A stretch of 64,000 nt of DNA from Pseudomonadota bacterium (GTDB lineage: Bacteria > Desulfobacterota > Syntrophorhabdia > Syntrophorhabdales > Syntrophorhabdaceae): positions 1 to 64,000 of the forward strand of contig JAPLKB010000008.1 of NCBI GenBank assembly GCA_026388275.1, read 5' to 3'. The notes under the pieces were generated by a model, which searched no databases, had not been told where the DNA came from, and worked only from the letters and a program-made list of their open reading frames with translations. The translations under genes were made by a program, and so were the position numbers. Shown here one piece after another: positions 31,326-52,031 of the stretch (position 1 is the first letter of the stretch; every line of letters starts with the position of its first letter).

Positions 31326-32117
31326 GTGAAAAAGACAATGGGTATTATGATATGTGCGGGTTTGCTGCTTTTAGGGACCGGGATGGCTTACGCCGATATA
31401 AAGACCGGTCTGATAGCTGACTATCAGTTTAACGGCAACGCCTTTGATACCGCAGGCAGTAATAACGGCACGGTTTATAATGCCGCCCTGACTGCTGACC
31501 GGTTCGGCAACGCCAATGGTGCTTACTACTTCAATGGTGGTTCCTCAATATCCGGAGGAGGATCATATATAGGACTTGACCATAATTTTAATTTCGTCAG
31601 CATGGGGGATTTAACCTTCTCGGCTTGGGTCAAACCTGCAGCTGACGGCGGCTTTATTTTCCATCAAGCCAACGGGGGTCAACTTTATCTGGCAAACGCG
31701 AGCATGACCGCCCATCTGGCCAATGGCGGCTGGTATTCGGCCGCAAACCCTGTCCCTTTCGCGCAAGATACATGGGTCAACCTCACCGGGGTCTATAAAG
31801 CCCGGAATCAAAACGAATTATGGGTAAATGGCAATCTTGTCGATACAATAAGTTTGGCTGACAGTAACCTGTTCGATGTCTATTGGAGTGATTATTTTTA
31901 CGCTGGTTTTGGGGCTTATCGTGAATCATGGTATTCCGACAGTTTACAGGGTGCATTCACTGGAACCATCGATGATTTCCGGATATACAACCGCGCCCTG
32001 ACACAGGGGGATATCCAAGAGTTAGCCGCCAACAACGTCCCACTTCCCGGAGCCGTCTGGCTCCTGGGATCCGGTCTCCTGGGGCTGGTTGCCAGAAGGA
32101 AACTTAAAAAAAGTTAA
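31326..32117 (+). CDS. PEP-CTERM sorted protein with LamG/concanavalin A-like domain
   Basis: A 263-residue exported protein. Signal peptide MKKTMGIMICAGLLLLGTGM ending in AYA. A LamG-like jelly-roll domain spans about residues 30-225 (DYQFNGNAFDTAGSNNGTVY, FSAWVKPAADGGF, IDDFRIYNRALTQGDIQEL). The C-terminus VPLPGAVWLLGSGLLGLVAR plus RK-rich tail is a PEP-CTERM/exosortase sorting signal, linking it to exopolysaccharide and surface functions. The GTG start has AAGGAG upstream. No exosortase gene is in the window. Confidence 0.88.
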   Translation: MKKTMGIMICAGLLLLGTGMAYADIKTGLIADYQFNGNAFDTAGSNNGTVYNAALTADRFGNANGAYYFNGGSSISGGGSYIGLDHNFNFVSMGDLTFSAWVKPAADGGFIFHQANGGQLYLANASMTAHLANGGWYSAANPVPFAQDTWVNLTGVYKARNQNELWVNGNLVDTISLADSNLFDVYWSDYFYAGFGAYRESWYSDSLQGAFTGTIDDFRIYNRALTQGDIQELAANNVPLPGAVWLLGSGLLGLVARRKLKKS

Positions 32118-37101: not shown

Positions 37102-38256
37102 TTAATCTGCCTGTTTCCTCAAAAAAGTAGGAATATCGTACCTGTCGTCGTCAATATCAATCATATCGCTTTTCATCTTTATTTCTTTGTAGTCTATAGC
37201 AACTTTTTTCTTCATAAAGGGAGGCAGGTCTTCATTGTCAAAAAGCCTGCTTTTGTTGAGCATATCGCTTGTATCCTCGTCCACAACAACCTTTTCTTCA
37301 AAACCGGTGGCAATGACCGTTATCCTCATAGCACTTTCCATGGTCTCATCATAGACAAGTCCCCATATGATCTTTGCTTCATCATGAGACTGTTCCTGAA
37401 TTAGTGAGGAGGCTTCATGTACCTCATGGAGAGTCATGTCTTTATTGCCTGTTACGTTTATCAATACCCCCCTTGCTCCGTGAATTGAAATATCTTCAAG
37501 AAGCGGGCTTGATATGGCTTTCTGGGCTGCATCCCTTGCCCTGTTTTCGCCTGAGGCTTCCCCGATGCCCATTATTGCCATCCCTCGTTCGCTCATAATA
37601 GTTTTAACATCCGCAAAATCTACAACTACATGGCCTGACCCTACAATCAAATCTGATATACTTCTTACAGCATTGAGGAGCACTTCGTCTGCCTTGAAAA
37701 AAGCCTCCATGATAGTCATGTGCTTGCCGCCGATAGACAGGAGTCTCTGATTAGGTATGGTAATGAGAGAATCAACCCTGGTTTTTAACTGGATTATCCC
37801 GTTTTCTGCCTGTCTCATCCTGTCTTTGCCTTCAAAGGCAAAAGGCTTTGTTGTAATTGCTACTGTTAAGGCGCCCAGTTCTTTTGAAATCTCCGCAATT
37901 ACTGAAGATGCACCTGTTCCGGTTCCACCTCCAAGCCCGCATGTTATAAAGACCATATCAGCGCCCTTCAGGTGCTCGATAATTTTTTCCGTGTCTTCGA
38001 GCGCTGCCTTTCTGCCGACTTCCGGGTCAGCACCTGCACCGAGCCCCCTGGTTAATTTGCCTCCTATCTGTATCTTAACACCGGCTTTGCATGTGCTCAG
38101 GGACTTGACATCCGTATTGACTCCGATAAATTCAACACCTGGAACACCCGCGTCCACCATGTTGTTTAAAGCATTACATCCGCCTCCACCAACCCCTATA
38201 ACCTTTAATTTTGCTGAAAAACCGTTATCCTCATCAATATAAAAGACTCTGCTCAC
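37102..38256 (-). CDS. ftsZ: Cell division protein FtsZ
   Basis: A 384-residue tubulin homologue that forms the Z-ring. It shows KVIGVGGGGCNALNNMVDAG at the nucleotide site, the tubulin signature GGGTGTGASSVIAEISKELG, and a C-terminal conserved peptide DRYDIPTFLRKQAD that binds FtsA. The linker before it is moderate. It is the last dcw gene, 12 bases after ftsA, and ends against a heptamer repeat. Confidence 0.98.
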   Translation of the reverse strand: MSRVFYIDEDNGFSAKLKVIGVGGGGCNALNNMVDAGVPGVEFIGVNTDVKSLSTCKAGVKIQIGGKLTRGLGAGADPEVGRKAALEDTEKIIEHLKGADMVFITCGLGGGTGTGASSVIAEISKELGALTVAITTKPFAFEGKDRMRQAENGIIQLKTRVDSLITIPNQRLLSIGGKHMTIMEAFFKADEVLLNAVRSISDLIVGSGHVVVDFADVKTIMSERGMAIMGIGEASGENRARDAAQKAISSPLLEDISIHGARGVLINVTGNKDMTLHEVHEASSLIQEQSHDEAKIIWGLVYDETMESAMRITVIATGFEEKVVVDEDTSDMLNKSRLFDNEDLPPFMKKKVAIDYKEIKMKSDMIDIDDDRYDIPTFLRKQAD

Positions 38257-38268
38257 AATAACACCTCC

Positions 38269-39516
38269 TTAGAAAATTTCTTTAAACCATTCCCTCATTT
38301 TATTGAGAAGATTATTACCATTTACTAATTTCATTAATGATTGCGTACCACCATACATTTTGCGCCTTTTTATATCAGAATGTTTGAACCCGTATACCAG
38401 AAGTCCAACTCCGGTTGCATATATAGGATTATTTACCACATCAACAAGACCGCCTACGCCCACAGGAAACCCCCTTCTTGTAGGGAGGTTGAAAATATTT
38501 TCAGCAAGTTCGGGAATGCCTTCAAGATTTGCACACCCTCCGGTAATTACAACACCCGAAGCAAGCAATTTTTCAAATCCTGATTTCTTAATCTCATCAT
38601 AGATCATGGATGATATCTCTTCAACCCTCGGCTCGATTATGTCTGCCAGGGTTTTTCGCATAAGCGTTCTCGGTTTTCTACCGCCTACACTGGGAACTTC
38701 AATGGTTTCATTAGCGCCTATCATGTTCGAAAAAGCGCAGCCGTATTTCTTCTTTATCTTCTCTGCATCATCAACAGGTGTTCGTAATCCGATGGCAATG
38801 TCATTCGTAATACTATTCCCTCCAAAGGGCAGCACCGATGTATGTTTTATGCTTCCCGTTGAAAATACTGCAATATCACTTGTACCGCCTCCGATATCGA
38901 CCAGAGCAACACCTATTTCTTTTTCTTCCGGTGTGAGTACCGCCTCTGATGAAGCAAGTTGTCCGAGTATGATACTGTCCACTGTGAGCCCTGCCATACG
39001 ACAGCACTTTATGATATTCTGCGCAGAGGAGGAGCTGCCGGTAACAATATGTACCTTTACCTCAAGCCTGACCCCTGTAATCCCGAGGGGGTCACGTATT
39101 CCATCCTGGTCGTCTATGATAAATTCCTGGGGGATAACATGAAGAATTTCCCGGTCTGCCGGTATTGCAATTGCTTTTGCAGCATCAATCGCCCTTGCAA
39201 TATCATCGGCTTTCACTTCCTTTTCTTTGATTGCAACAACGCCATTACTGTTGAAGCTCTTGATGTGAGCGCCCCCTATGCCTGCCATACAGTTGTTAAT
39301 CTTTATGCCTGCCATTAATTCGGCTTCTTCTACAGCCTTTTTTATAGAAGTAATAGTGCTTTCCATATTCACAACAACGCCTTTTCTCAGGCCCGTAGAA
39401 GGGTAAGATCCTATGCCTACTATGTTTATCTTCTCCTCAGCTACTTTCCCCACAACAATGCATATCTTTGTGGTTCCAATATCAACTCCTACGAGAAGCT
39501 CTTCTTCTCTAACCAT
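38269..39516 (-). CDS. ftsA: Cell division protein FtsA
   Basis: An actin-fold protein of 415 residues that tethers FtsZ to the membrane and relays activation to the septal synthase. N-terminal EELLVGVDIGTTKICIVVG, later VALVDIGGGTSDIAVFSTGS, and the C-terminal amphipathic membrane helix LLNKMREWFKEIF are visible. It directly follows ftsQ with a two-base gap. Its presence is notable because the FtsW/FtsI targets in this cluster look inactive. Confidence 0.97.
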   Translation of the reverse strand: MVREEELLVGVDIGTTKICIVVGKVAEEKINIVGIGSYPSTGLRKGVVVNMESTITSIKKAVEEAELMAGIKINNCMAGIGGAHIKSFNSNGVVAIKEKEVKADDIARAIDAAKAIAIPADREILHVIPQEFIIDDQDGIRDPLGITGVRLEVKVHIVTGSSSSAQNIIKCCRMAGLTVDSIILGQLASSEAVLTPEEKEIGVALVDIGGGTSDIAVFSTGSIKHTSVLPFGGNSITNDIAIGLRTPVDDAEKIKKKYGCAFSNMIGANETIEVPSVGGRKPRTLMRKTLADIIEPRVEEISSMIYDEIKKSGFEKLLASGVVITGGCANLEGIPELAENIFNLPTRRGFPVGVGGLVDVVNNPIYATGVGLLVYGFKHSDIKRRKMYGGTQSLMKLVNGNNLLNKMREWFKEIF

Positions 39517-39518
39517 TT

Positions 39519-40220
39519 TTAGCCCTTCCTTTCCTGGATAATTCCACCCTTTTCAAATCTTGCATCTATACATTTAATCATGAGACCCCGTTTTTTTGCA
39601 TCTTCGAGTATAGAAACAGCTCTCTTAAGTCTTTCCTTCTGGTCTTCCTTGCCGAGCACTATCTCTACCCCGTCTTCTGCACCAAAAACCGTCACGCTGC
39701 CTTCGTCATATGCAATTTCCGATATGGCATTTCTTTTTATAATTCCTTGCGTAATCCAGCTATTGGTTTCCCTGTACAGGCTCTTTACATCCGCCTTATC
39801 CCCGGCATTAATAACAAACATATTTTTTATATCGCCTTTCGTTAACCTTTTATATGGCTCTCCACATTCATCAAGCACACTGATAACACCATTCTTATCA
39901 ACCCATAGAGCCGAGGGTATTTTTTCCTTCACGTCTATGATAATTGAAAAAGGGAAAACTCTTTTTATCCTTACTTCCTTTACAAACGGGTGCGACGTGA
40001 TGATTTCTTTCATCTTTTGAATGTCTATTCTGAAAAGGTTTCCCCGAATGAAAGGGGATATCCTGCCCATAATATCTTCATCTCCTAATTGACTTGCCCC
40101 GTTTATTCTTATATTTTTTATGAAGAACAACGGTTCATCTTTTGAAAATATGTATATTGTCGTTAGCATGGATAAAATACATATTGGCACAAGAAAAAAG
40201 ATGTACAGGGTTTTTTTCAT
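39519..40220 (-). CDS. ftsQ: Cell division protein FtsQ
   Basis: A bitopic divisome protein of 233 residues. One N-terminal membrane helix (LYIFFLVPICILSMLTTIYI) is followed by a POTRA domain (FFIKNIRINGASQLGDEDIMGRI) and a beta domain (ASYVTVFGAEDGVEIVLG-like region). It connects early and late division proteins with FtsL. It overlaps ddl by four bases. Confidence 0.9.
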   Translation of the reverse strand: MKKTLYIFFLVPICILSMLTTIYIFSKDEPLFFIKNIRINGASQLGDEDIMGRISPFIRGNLFRIDIQKMKEIITSHPFVKEVRIKRVFPFSIIIDVKEKIPSALWVDKNGVISVLDECGEPYKRLTKGDIKNMFVINAGDKADVKSLYRETNSWITQGIIKRNAISEIAYDEGSVTVFGAEDGVEIVLGKEDQKERLKRAVSILEDAKKRGLMIKCIDARFEKGGIIQERKG

Positions 40221-43620: not shown

Positions 43621-44694
43621 TCATTTCCCGGTTACCTCTTCCTGTATCTTTGAAATAATCCTCTCCTGTGCATCATCGACAAACAGTCTGCCGATATTTT
43701 CACCCATCTGCTTAAGCAATGCAGGCTCATTCATGAGATGCTTTATAACACCATAGAGCCTTTCTCCGCTTGCCTCATCATTGCCGACAATATAACCTCC
43801 GCCGACATTCTCCACGTGAGAAGCATTTTTCCATTGGTGCTGTCCTGCAGAGAACGGATAAGGTATAAGTATCGCCGCTTTTCTGAAATATGCAAGCTCG
43901 AAGATTGTTGAAGCTCCCGCCCTTGATATAACTACGTCTGAACGGTTGTAGTAATTAGCCATGTTGTCTGTAAAAGGAAAAACCTCGTGTTTTATATCTG
44001 TTTTTTCATATGCTTCTTTTATGCGATCATAGTCTTCCGCCCCTGTCTGGTGATAAATAACTGCATTTTTGTAGCCTTCCAGGTAAGGAAGTAAGGAAAG
44101 TACTGATTCATTGATGCTTTTTGCGCCCCTGCTCCCTCCGAATACAAAGATTCCGAATGTTTCATCGCTTTTTGTTTCTCTTGGAACCTTGACAGCATGT
44201 CTTACGGGGTTACCTGTATAATATACACCTTTGCTTTTAAACAATTCCCCTGATTCCTGAAAACTGATGAATGTCGCCTTTGCGTATTTTGAAAGCACCT
44301 TGTTTGCAAGTCCGGGCTCAGCATTCTGCTCATGAAGAAAGACCGGTACGCCGAGGATGGCACCTGCAAAAATTATTGGTACGGATGTAAAACCACCCAT
44401 CCCGAGAATTGCATCCGGTTTCTCCCTTTTTATAATCCTCATGCAGCTGCAGATACCCTTCAGGATATAAAAGAGTGTGGCAGCCTTGTACAATGCACTT
44501 CTGCCCTGAAACTGCCGTGCCTGAACGAAAAGGAGTCTGAACCCATACTGGGGGATAATTTTACTCTCAAGCCCAAAAGTTGTCCCGATGAATACCACCT
44601 GGTTATCCTGCCCCTGCGCAATAAACGTCTCAGCCACGGCAATACCGGGAAAGATATGTCCTCCTGTCCCGCCTGCCGATATGATGAGCTTCAT
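43621..44694 (-). CDS. murG: UDP-GlcNAc:lipid I N-acetylglucosaminyltransferase
   Basis: A GT-B transferase of 357 residues making lipid II from lipid I. The first glycine loop SAGGTGGHIFPGIAVAETF, LGMGGFTSVPIIFAG, LHEQNAEPGLANKVLSKYA, the second glycine loop FVFGGSRGAKSIN, and RAGASTIFELAYFRKAAILIPYP are intact. It overlaps the FtsW-like gene by four bases. The 100-base gap before murC carries two heptamers (GTTCACG GTTCACA at 43543-43556). Confidence 0.97.
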   Translation of the reverse strand: MKLIISAGGTGGHIFPGIAVAETFIAQGQDNQVVFIGTTFGLESKIIPQYGFRLLFVQARQFQGRSALYKAATLFYILKGICSCMRIIKREKPDAILGMGGFTSVPIIFAGAILGVPVFLHEQNAEPGLANKVLSKYAKATFISFQESGELFKSKGVYYTGNPVRHAVKVPRETKSDETFGIFVFGGSRGAKSINESVLSLLPYLEGYKNAVIYHQTGAEDYDRIKEAYEKTDIKHEVFPFTDNMANYYNRSDVVISRAGASTIFELAYFRKAAILIPYPFSAGQHQWKNASHVENVGGGYIVGNDEASGERLYGVIKHLMNEPALLKQMGENIGRLFVDDAQERIISKIQEEVTGK

Positions 44695-45482
44695 ATATAC
44701 TCCTTTTCCGCTTTGAGCATTATTCCGATAAGCGGCGTCAATACAAGAAGGGCAGCCACTGGCTGATACAGAAGCCCGGCTGAAAGTCTTAGCCCCAGCA
44801 CCATAAAAATATCCGTTGCAATATAGATAGAACCGAAAAAGATCATGAGCTTGATAAAATTGCTCTTTTTTGTAAATCCTACAAAAGCCGTGATCAAAAA
44901 TACAAAAGAAGTTGCTAAAAGCAAATATTTTTCCACATCGTTGATCTTTACCCCGCCTCCAAGTATGTTTACTTCCTTGTTAAAGATGATCAGTGCTATG
45001 GTAATAGCCAGTGTATATCCTGCTATGAAGGGAATCAGACGGTTTTTACCGATTACGAAAAGAAAAAACACGGCAGCTATGGACATGGGAATGATAAAAA
45101 GCGCTTTCCCGATCATAAAGAGGTTGAAGGCAGAGGAAAGAAATAACACTGAAAGGGCTGCAATTTCTTTAATCAAATTTTTTCCTTTTTCATCAATTGT
45201 AATTAAATAAAAGGTTAATCCGTAAAAAGAAACAAATATAATAAGGGCATCAAGGGGATATTGGATACTCATCTTCGGATATACGAAGAAAAAGACTGTC
45301 ACTGCAAGAGCAAAACATATAAAGGGATATTTCATCGCAATGATATGCTTTGCCGGGATGAGGTATATAAGGTAGGCAGCTCCGAGGCCAAGACAGATCA
45401 TCAGAACTTTGACAACATTAAGCTCACGGAAGAAGCCGTATAGTAAAATGGAGGCTGTCAGATAAACAAATACTTTTTTCAA
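44691..45482 (-). CDS. Degenerate FtsW-like (SEDS-derived) membrane protein
   Basis: A 263-residue polytopic protein in the exact murD-to-murG position of ftsW, with about ten hydrophobic segments. The C-terminal part IATDIFMVLGLRLSAGLLYQ, then PVAALLVLTPLIGIML, lines up with the FtsW end (INIGMVLGLLPTTGLPLP then FISYGGSSLL), but the PFISYGGSS motif is gone. Canonical FtsW is about 370-410 residues. The large extracellular loop 4 carrying the catalytic aspartate is reduced to roughly 15 residues (NKEVNILGGGVKIND). The TTG start overlaps the murD stop, with GGTGGA upstream. Homology is inferred from position and pattern, not from a search. Confidence 0.6.
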   Translation of the reverse strand: MKKVFVYLTASILLYGFFRELNVVKVLMICLGLGAAYLIYLIPAKHIIAMKYPFICFALAVTVFFFVYPKMSIQYPLDALIIFVSFYGLTFYLITIDEKGKNLIKEIAALSVLFLSSAFNLFMIGKALFIIPMSIAAVFFLFVIGKNRLIPFIAGYTLAITIALIIFNKEVNILGGGVKINDVEKYLLLATSFVFLITAFVGFTKKSNFIKLMIFFGSIYIATDIFMVLGLRLSAGLLYQPVAALLVLTPLIGIMLKAEKEYI

Positions 45483-50775: not shown

Positions 50776-51732
50776 TCAACGTTTATCCGGTAATGTGACA
50801 GGGAAACCGTTTTGTTGCTTTTGCGTTTTCCCGTAAATGATGCATTCGGTTTCCCCGTTTATTCTTTCAAAGGGCTTGGGAAATTGCTCGGCAACAATGC
50901 CGCTCCCGTGTATCTTTATTTTTGCGGTATTGATTGCAAGTTTTTCAAGGGCGACTTTAATTGGAAGGTTCATCAGGTTCGGCATCAGCCGTTCTTCATT
51001 CTCTGCATTATGGTGTTTCTTAGCGTTATTCTTCATCGCTGTAAACTCAAAATGCCCATTATTCCCGATAATCACCGTCCCGTTAACGGTAAAGGGGAAT
51101 AGATTGCAATACTCATTTGAAACAGTGTCGCTATAGAGCGATAGCAACTTTTTCTTTTCCAGGACATAACCTCTGCCCAGCATGATTTCTTCTGCAGAAA
51201 GTCCTTCCTTTACCATAATCCCTTCCTGTTTCAGGAATAACATCATATGTTTTATGCCTATTGTTTTTGAGATATTTTTTAAGCCCTCTACGTCCTTGTC
51301 ATATAATATATCAATGGGCTTTTTCCATTGGGCAGCATTCCCGTTGTCTTTACCTGCCGGGATCATGCCCTCCTTTTCTATCAGCCCTTCCTTAATGGCA
51401 AAGCAAACTAAGGGGAGCGACATAAAGAACGACGGTTCAATAAAATCATTTCCAGGCACAGGTGGAGACACCTTTTTGTTGACAGCAGCTTGTTCAGTCT
51501 GTGTTTCTCGTACCGGTTGTATTGCCTGAGCTGTTGAGACCGATACTATTTTCGGTATAATCTTTCTTTCATTTTCCTGCATATATATACTCATATTTGC
51601 CGGTACTATTTTCTGATCAGTGGAAACTCTCTGAAAACTTATTTTTTCCGGCAGATGCATGATTATTGACACAAACATCAAAAAAATAAACATACAAACA
51701 AAAAAGGCTCTTCTATTAGCCTTTTTATTCAT
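50776..51732 (-). CDS. Degenerate FtsI-like protein with PASTA domain, active-site motifs lost
   Basis: A 318-residue protein in the ftsI position between ftsL and murE. It has a single N-terminal membrane helix (about residues 8-27), a long linker, a reduced transpeptidase-like core (about 97-232), and a C-terminal PASTA domain (about 249-301, LMPNLMNLPIKVALEKLAIN). In the core, FIEPSFFMSLPLVCFAIKEG matches the serine helix of PBP3 enzymes (EPGSxxKxxTALAALE). The SxxK lysine is Met, the SxN equivalent is DKD (residues 145-147), and no KTG is present. FtsI is normally about 580-650 residues. It appears non-catalytic; homology is inferred by eye and position. Confidence 0.65.
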   Translation of the reverse strand: MNKKANRRAFFVCMFIFLMFVSIIMHLPEKISFQRVSTDQKIVPANMSIYMQENERKIIPKIVSVSTAQAIQPVRETQTEQAAVNKKVSPPVPGNDFIEPSFFMSLPLVCFAIKEGLIEKEGMIPAGKDNGNAAQWKKPIDILYDKDVEGLKNISKTIGIKHMMLFLKQEGIMVKEGLSAEEIMLGRGYVLEKKKLLSLYSDTVSNEYCNLFPFTVNGTVIIGNNGHFEFTAMKNNAKKHHNAENEERLMPNLMNLPIKVALEKLAINTAKIKIHGSGIVAEQFPKPFERINGETECIIYGKTQKQQNGFPVTLPDKR

Positions 51733-52031
51733 CTTAATACCAGGACCTCTTCTTCTTTTGCTTTCTTAAGACCGAGTTTTTTTGCCTGCAGTTCGAGAAA
51801 TCTTGCCCGTGTTGTCGCTAAGTATTCTATTTTTAAATTTTCATTAATTTGAGCAACCTCTCTTTCCTTCTGCAATATTTCCAACAAATCTTCCCTGACA
51901 TGGCTGTATACACCCTTTATAAAAAAAGATAAAAAAATGAAACCGATAAAACAAAGAATTCCCATAAAGATTGACGGGAAATTCCTGGTTTCTCTGTCTC
52001 TTTTTACTGAAACATACACCCCATTGTTCAC
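51729..52031 (-). CDS. ftsL: Cell division protein FtsL-like
   Basis: A 100-residue bitopic protein: basic cytoplasmic tail, one membrane helix (FPSIFMGILCFIGFIFLSFF), then a heptad-rich coiled coil (REDLLEILQKEREVAQINEN...). Size, topology and position between rsmH and the ftsI slot identify FtsL, the partner of FtsQ/FtsB in activating FtsW-FtsI. The start is GTG and the stop overlaps the FtsI-like start. Confidence 0.8.
   Translation of the reverse strand: MNNGVYVSVKRDRETRNFPSIFMGILCFIGFIFLSFFIKGVYSHVREDLLEILQKEREVAQINENLKIEYLATTRARFLELQAKKLGLKKAKEEEVLVLR

Follow-up and report, generated by a model that had tools for sequence, protein, structure and literature searches.

The division and cell wall (dcw) gene cluster of Syntrophorhabdales, an order of syntrophic bacteria, probably encodes a catalytically dead pair of septal synthases that is still under selection. 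We studied the cluster in a 64,000-nucleotide stretch of DNA (the window; positions 1 to 64,000 of contig JAPLKB010000008.1, assembly GCA_026388275.1) from a member of the Syntrophorhabdaceae whose genome is a 99.5% complete draft of 71 contigs, and compared it with other genomes of the order and of the phylum Desulfobacterota. FtsW and FtsI are considered almost universal, and indispensable for building the septal wall. A preliminary description, made from the sequence of the window alone, had placed a pseudo-transpeptidase in the ftsI slot (pseudo-FtsI, or pFtsI); the degenerate occupant of the ftsW slot (pseudo-FtsW, or pFtsW), which forms the second half of the pair, went unseen there. The pFtsI gene and its parts lie at:

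50776..51732, minus strand: pFtsI, 318 amino acids, in the ftsI slot with ftsL on one side and murE on the other
51658..51726, minus strand: N-terminal membrane anchor, pFtsI residues 3-25 (helix 3-25 in the AlphaFold2 (AF2) model; hydrophobic segment 5-33)
50998..51462, minus strand: compacted transpeptidase domain, pFtsI residues 91-245, from the VIA-align superposition on Pseudomonas aeruginosa PBP3
51418..51438, minus strand: EPSFFMS, pFtsI residues 99-105, counterpart of EPGSTFK (hhalign and motif table), with the nucleophilic Ser replaced by Phe and the Lys by Ser
50827..50994, minus strand: PASTA domain, pFtsI residues 247-302, from PF03793 in homologues and a profile match to the PASTA domain of full-length FtsI

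The reading frame is real and uninterrupted and, as first described, is tightly embedded by overlap with ftsL (51729-52031; the overlap measures 4 bp) and encodes a protein of about half the normal length (full-length active FtsI proteins of the phylum have 641-679 amino acids). The reported absence of all three catalytic motifs was borne out: the EPGSTFK position reads EPSFFMS, the SSN position reads KDV (KDE in the pFtsI family) and K[TS]G occurs nowhere in the window protein. SxxK and SxN are present in all 21 active FtsI proteins of the phylum, each of which also keeps KT[GA] (KTA in one); none of SxxK, SxN and KTG is found at the aligned positions of the pFtsI family. Judged by these residues, pFtsI cannot be an acyl-enzyme transpeptidase.

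Descent from FtsI is almost certain and the protein appears to be maintained, because profile-profile homology, predicted fold, synteny and purifying selection agree. By itself, pFtsI matched no Pfam or NCBIfam family. The transpeptidase profile PF00905 found no sequence match in it or in 20 homologues, and the PASTA domain named in the preliminary description, uncalled by Pfam in the window protein, was recovered through its relatives: PF03793 matched 14 of the 20 homologues individually, and the region aligns with the PASTA domain of FtsI. In a comparison of a profile of 23 pFtsI proteins with one of 21 proteins from FtsI slots of the phylum (19 active and 2 from dead lineages), hhalign returned a probability of 98.2 (E = 3e-14) and a collinear alignment in which EPGSTFK faces EPsfFiS and SSN faces KDE, followed by the C-terminal PASTA domain. 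When the pFtsI profile was searched across the phylum, matches outside the order fell in the PASTA region of longer open reading frames (ORFs; mostly 560-880 amino acids) that typically lie ~6 kb from ftsW.

The predicted structure is consistent with this ancestry. The AF2 model has a predicted local distance difference test (pLDDT) score of 74, with the core and PASTA domain mostly above 80, and its top Foldseek matches are PBP2x and PBP3 (E = 3e-5). With VIA-align, the best match in the Protein Data Bank (PDB) was P. aeruginosa PBP3 (Z = 11.6, root-mean-square deviation (rmsd) 3.3, 147 residues aligned); model residues 91-239 lie on PBP3 residues 283-545, so that 147 residues stand for a stretch of 263. 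The N-terminal anchor and vestigial transpeptidase core of the preliminary description thus both reappear, and the resemblance to transpeptidases, whose absence from a predicted structure it had named as a way to be proved wrong, is present. None of 20 family members matches the pedestal (PF03717), which gives way to a variable, low-confidence linker of ~60 residues.

The most conserved parts of pFtsI are the PASTA domain and the residues that surround the former active site, as might be expected if the protein were mainly a cell-wall sensor. Its PASTA domain would then detect lipid II or septal peptidoglycan and pass the signal to FtsQLB or some other partner, and pFtsI would scaffold no synthase. 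The PASTA region of Staphylococcus aureus PBP1 is essential and binds peptidoglycan, and its loss weakens contacts with DivIB and FtsW (PMC9426605). We nonetheless regard a pure sensor as improbable: few residues precede the pFtsI anchor and there is no cytoplasmic signalling domain, and a sensor alone leaves the retention of pFtsW unexplained.

Each of the 31 further genomes of the order that were sampled has a pFtsI homologue in the ftsI slot, and 20 named loci, labeled Syntrophorhabdus, Syntrophorhabdaceae, Syntrophorhabdales or generic Deltaproteobacteria, share the dcw gene order with a pFtsI slot, mostly together with the ftsL overlap. The slot is filled alike across the order, in three families. 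Neither chance nor one faulty assembly can account for recurrence in 31 genomes and 20 loci. We also consider refuted the idea that pFtsI is a truncated or misassembled ftsI whose remainder lies nearby or elsewhere, a concern that a draft of 71 contigs invites, as the same short protein is found in every sampled genome of the order and a PF00905 search of the window's own genome revealed no second, active FtsI.

Ratios of nonsynonymous to synonymous substitution rates (dN/dS), calculated for six pairs taken from the genus of the window and from related genera, were 0.11-0.33 for pFtsI, 0.09-0.36 for pFtsW and 0.09-0.24 for ftsL, with 0.03-0.20 for murE, mraY, murD and murG. Values below 1, intact frames and the order-wide locus bear out the earlier view that pFtsI is maintained rather than decaying, and its ratios indicate purifying selection. 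That both genes are decaying relics which persist because of operon structure and translational coupling is very improbable. Their products are shorter than their ancestors and evolve mostly faster than the Mur neighbors, and ftsW has been wholly lost in parallel lineages (see below); against this, open frames of similar length persist in three families, dN/dS is well below 1 and some residues are invariant across the order.

The second member of the pair occupies the slot of ftsW:

44691..45482, minus strand: pFtsW, a ten-helix protein of 263 amino acids that fills the ftsW slot, flanked by murD and murG
44940..44981, minus strand: helix 7-8 segment, pFtsW residues 168-181 (~14 residues), at the site of the FtsW catalytic loop GxGxG...LPxxHTDF (AF2 helix limits and motif counts)

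pFtsW matched no Pfam or NCBIfam family, PF01098 included. Of 46 genomes of the order, 45 encode it, with murD (or mraY) on one side and murG on the other wherever the contig extends that far; in one locus (L071) no murD separates mraY from the pFtsW gene. Its AF2 model comprises ten membrane-length helices and superposes on FtsW of the FtsWIQLB complexes with Z scores of 19.8 and 19.7 over 254 of 263 residues, and on RodA with 19.4; the next other fold, WaaL, reached 12.1 and the remainder fell below 8. The catalytic loop appears to be gone: G.G.G was found in 19/19 FtsW compared to 2/34 pFtsW sequences, and PE..[TS]D[FY] in 11/19 compared to 0/34, with three inspected FtsW misses reading LPAxHTDF. 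On the strength of the model, pFtsW is probably a pseudo-SEDS protein, that is, a remnant of FtsW without its catalytic loop.

We then asked which wall synthases remain. The only SEDS protein in the window's own genome is RodA, in an operon mreB-mreC-mreD-PBP2-RodA. Its four PF00905 matches are PBP2, which is its only class B penicillin-binding protein (PBP), two class A PBPs and a class D beta-lactamase-like protein. The last of these (308 amino acids with an STFK motif; contig 33, L002:1204-2130) is carried by an anaerobe without an FtsI target. Of the 46 genomes of the order, 43 carry a single SEDS protein, RodA beside PBP2; elsewhere in the phylum, most genomes carry two. What is left of the septal synthase pair is therefore a pseudo-pair.

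Three genomes have a second SEDS match, none of which we accept as a retained FtsW. In G010 (L102) and G018 (L103) it belongs to an accessory SEDS-class B PBP pair outside dcw, in a cluster of kinase/FHA/phosphatase type; the pair is accompanied by a Ser/Thr kinase, the arrangement resembles actinobacterial pknB clusters, and phosphatase- and FHA-like ORFs are present in the L103 cluster. In G027 it is a partial match at the end of contig 54 (L104), which we read as chimeric: in this public metagenome-assembled genome, an actinobacterial-looking ftsW-murG-murC is joined to a Syntrophorhabdales-type murB-ddl.

Similar losses were found elsewhere in the phylum. In six families (f17, f20, f62, f65, f66 and f67), the FtsI slot encodes a protein of 455-666 amino acids that matches PASTA and the pedestal but lacks SxxK, SxN and KTG, and there is no ftsW between murD and murG. 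Where located, their SEDS protein is RodA adjoining PBP2, and in f62, f66, f67 and G062 (f20) the synthases detected amount to RodA-PBP2 and a single class A PBP. Across 32 loci outside Syntrophorhabdales, a biased sample picked for FtsI with a related PASTA domain, FtsI has lost its motifs in every locus that lacks ftsW and in no other. In trees of murE-murF-mraY-murD, Syntrophorhabdales is sister to f40, which has active FtsI and FtsW (support 0.99 and 99); f17, f62, f65, f66 and f67 form a separate clade, with f20 inside it in one tree and elsewhere in the other. The free trees favour two or three losses over a single origin of all dead lineages, although a single clade was not rejected by the approximately unbiased (AU) test (p = 0.17). 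In the f17 and f67 lineages (L114-L118 and L112), murE and murF appear as one ORF of ~1000-1050 amino acids, likely a MurE-MurF fusion. In f17, the only rodA of G059 is frameshifted (L134/L138, a single-contig genome) and G147 shows no SEDS or PBP2, possibly reflecting loss of every SEDS protein, or else sequence or assembly error.

The remaining division genes of the window are retained. The cluster runs mraZ, mraW, ftsL, pFtsI, murE, murF, mraY, murD, pFtsW, murG, murC, murB, ddl, ftsQ, ftsA and ftsZ, with the retained divisome genes at:

51729..52031, minus strand: ftsL (PF04977, E = 0.0095), sharing 4 bp with pFtsI in a conserved overlap
39519..40220, minus strand: ftsQ, a retained divisome partner, assigned from dcw position and sequence
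37102..39516, minus strand: ftsA and ftsZ, both retained and intact

The genome that holds FtsZ, FtsA, FtsQ and FtsL also encodes an FtsB-like protein (E = 1.4e-12). Away from the cluster, window positions 31326-32117 (plus strand) encode a LamG-like secreted protein with a PEP-CTERM-type tail (VPLPGAVWLLGSGLLGLVARRK).

Because active FtsI and FtsW are missing throughout the order, the septum must be built by other enzymes. We consider it fairly probable, from the combined analysis, that the pseudo-pair serves as a divisome scaffold or regulator and that a class A PBP makes the septal wall. On this proposal pFtsI, having shed the pedestal and active-site motifs and kept its anchor, trimmed transpeptidase fold and PASTA domain, and pFtsW, reduced to a bare ten-helix SEDS-like bundle, would still form a membrane complex with FtsQLB. 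The PASTA domain would contact FtsQ or nascent septal peptidoglycan, and the complex would recruit or gate the replacement synthase, most likely a class A PBP, with RodA-PBP2 staying in its elongation role.

Alternatively, the dead pair could be a scaffold for RodA-PBP2, which would then serve both elongation and division. Nearly all genomes have no SEDS-class B PBP pair other than RodA-PBP2, which is conserved next to mreBCD, and the SEDS-like bundle of pFtsW could pair with partners of the PBP2 type or compete for them. We think this rather unlikely, given that in Clostridioides difficile, where RodA-PBP2 is likewise single and essential, that pair elongates the cell and a class A PBP drives vegetative division, canonical FtsWI being absent (PMC10693644). 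The f17 genomes without SEDS and PBP2 (G147) or with a frameshifted rodA (G059) also speak against it, unless they are assembly or sequencing errors. The genomic pattern here is of the C. difficile type (no active septal FtsWI, one RodA-PBP2 pair and at least one class A PBP), and it is this precedent that leads us to favour a class A PBP over RodA-PBP2; the genomes themselves do not decide.

Several points weigh against a class A PBP working under a pseudo-FtsWI scaffold. The pedestal is a main contact of FtsI to FtsW and FtsL in FtsWIQLB structures, and it is missing from pFtsI, so the contacts would have to differ. Profile comparison by hhalign found no homology between pFtsW and FtsW (probability 1.6), and the pFtsW model was built on 18 sequences, with one of five models confident (pLDDT 79; others 48-59). 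No SPOR-domain or FtsN-type protein was detected in the window's own genome, leaving no evident activator for the replacement synthase. Finally, class A PBPs are not enriched everywhere, and G026 and G053 have only two transpeptidase matches.

A literature search, thin on subscription journals, turned up neither a dead FtsI described from these lineages nor a pseudo-SEDS protein nor an order-wide dead FtsWI pair, and nothing on pseudoenzyme FtsI, on FtsW with Desulfobacterota, or on FtsI or FtsW with Syntrophorhabdus. The chances are about even that the pair is a natural pseudo-FtsWI in which both enzymes, including the first pseudo-SEDS, have become non-catalytic controllers of another septal synthase, with a similar loss occurring separately in other Desulfobacterota. 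With FtsZ, FtsA, FtsQ and FtsL in place and no FtsWI other than a dead one, the order is a natural experiment in which what the pair does structurally and as a regulator is uncoupled from catalysis, and it makes testable whether a divisome is able to drive either a class A PBP or RodA-PBP2. The results also caution against reading activity from an FtsI annotation made by gene position, and warn that FtsW can endure where sequence comparison no longer recognizes it; drugs directed at FtsI or FtsW would find no target in these cells.

Compared with known systems, pFtsI shares with the FtsI/PBP3 group, including the PASTA-bearing PBP2x, SpoVD and S. aureus PBP1, its slot after ftsL, membrane anchor, transpeptidase fold and C-terminal PASTA domain, but is half as long and lacks the pedestal, SxxK, SxN and KTG. 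pFtsW resembles the SEDS glycosyltransferase FtsW in its murD-murG slot and its ten-helix fold over 254 residues, but is ~100 residues shorter and without the catalytic extracellular loop or detectable sequence similarity. Absence of ftsW and ftsN was reported in 2021 for four genomes of Desulfobulbaceae, the family of cable bacteria, which belong to the same phylum (PMC7873302); that study treated FtsI as active, whereas f17 and its relatives, which show the matching pattern here, have a motif-less FtsI. In Escherichia coli, the glycosyltransferase activity of the class A enzyme PBP1b is regulated by FtsBLQ and FtsN (PMC6325244). Catalytically inactive PBP2B supports division structurally in Bacillus subtilis (PMC5656894), much as we propose for pFtsI, but is a laboratory point mutant backed by PBP3, where the present case is natural and order-wide. 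C. difficile likewise combines a single RodA-PBP2 for elongation with a class A PBP as candidate septal synthase; its dcw pair, however, is enzymatically active and sporulation-specific, whereas that of Syntrophorhabdales is dead and its hosts are not Firmicutes.
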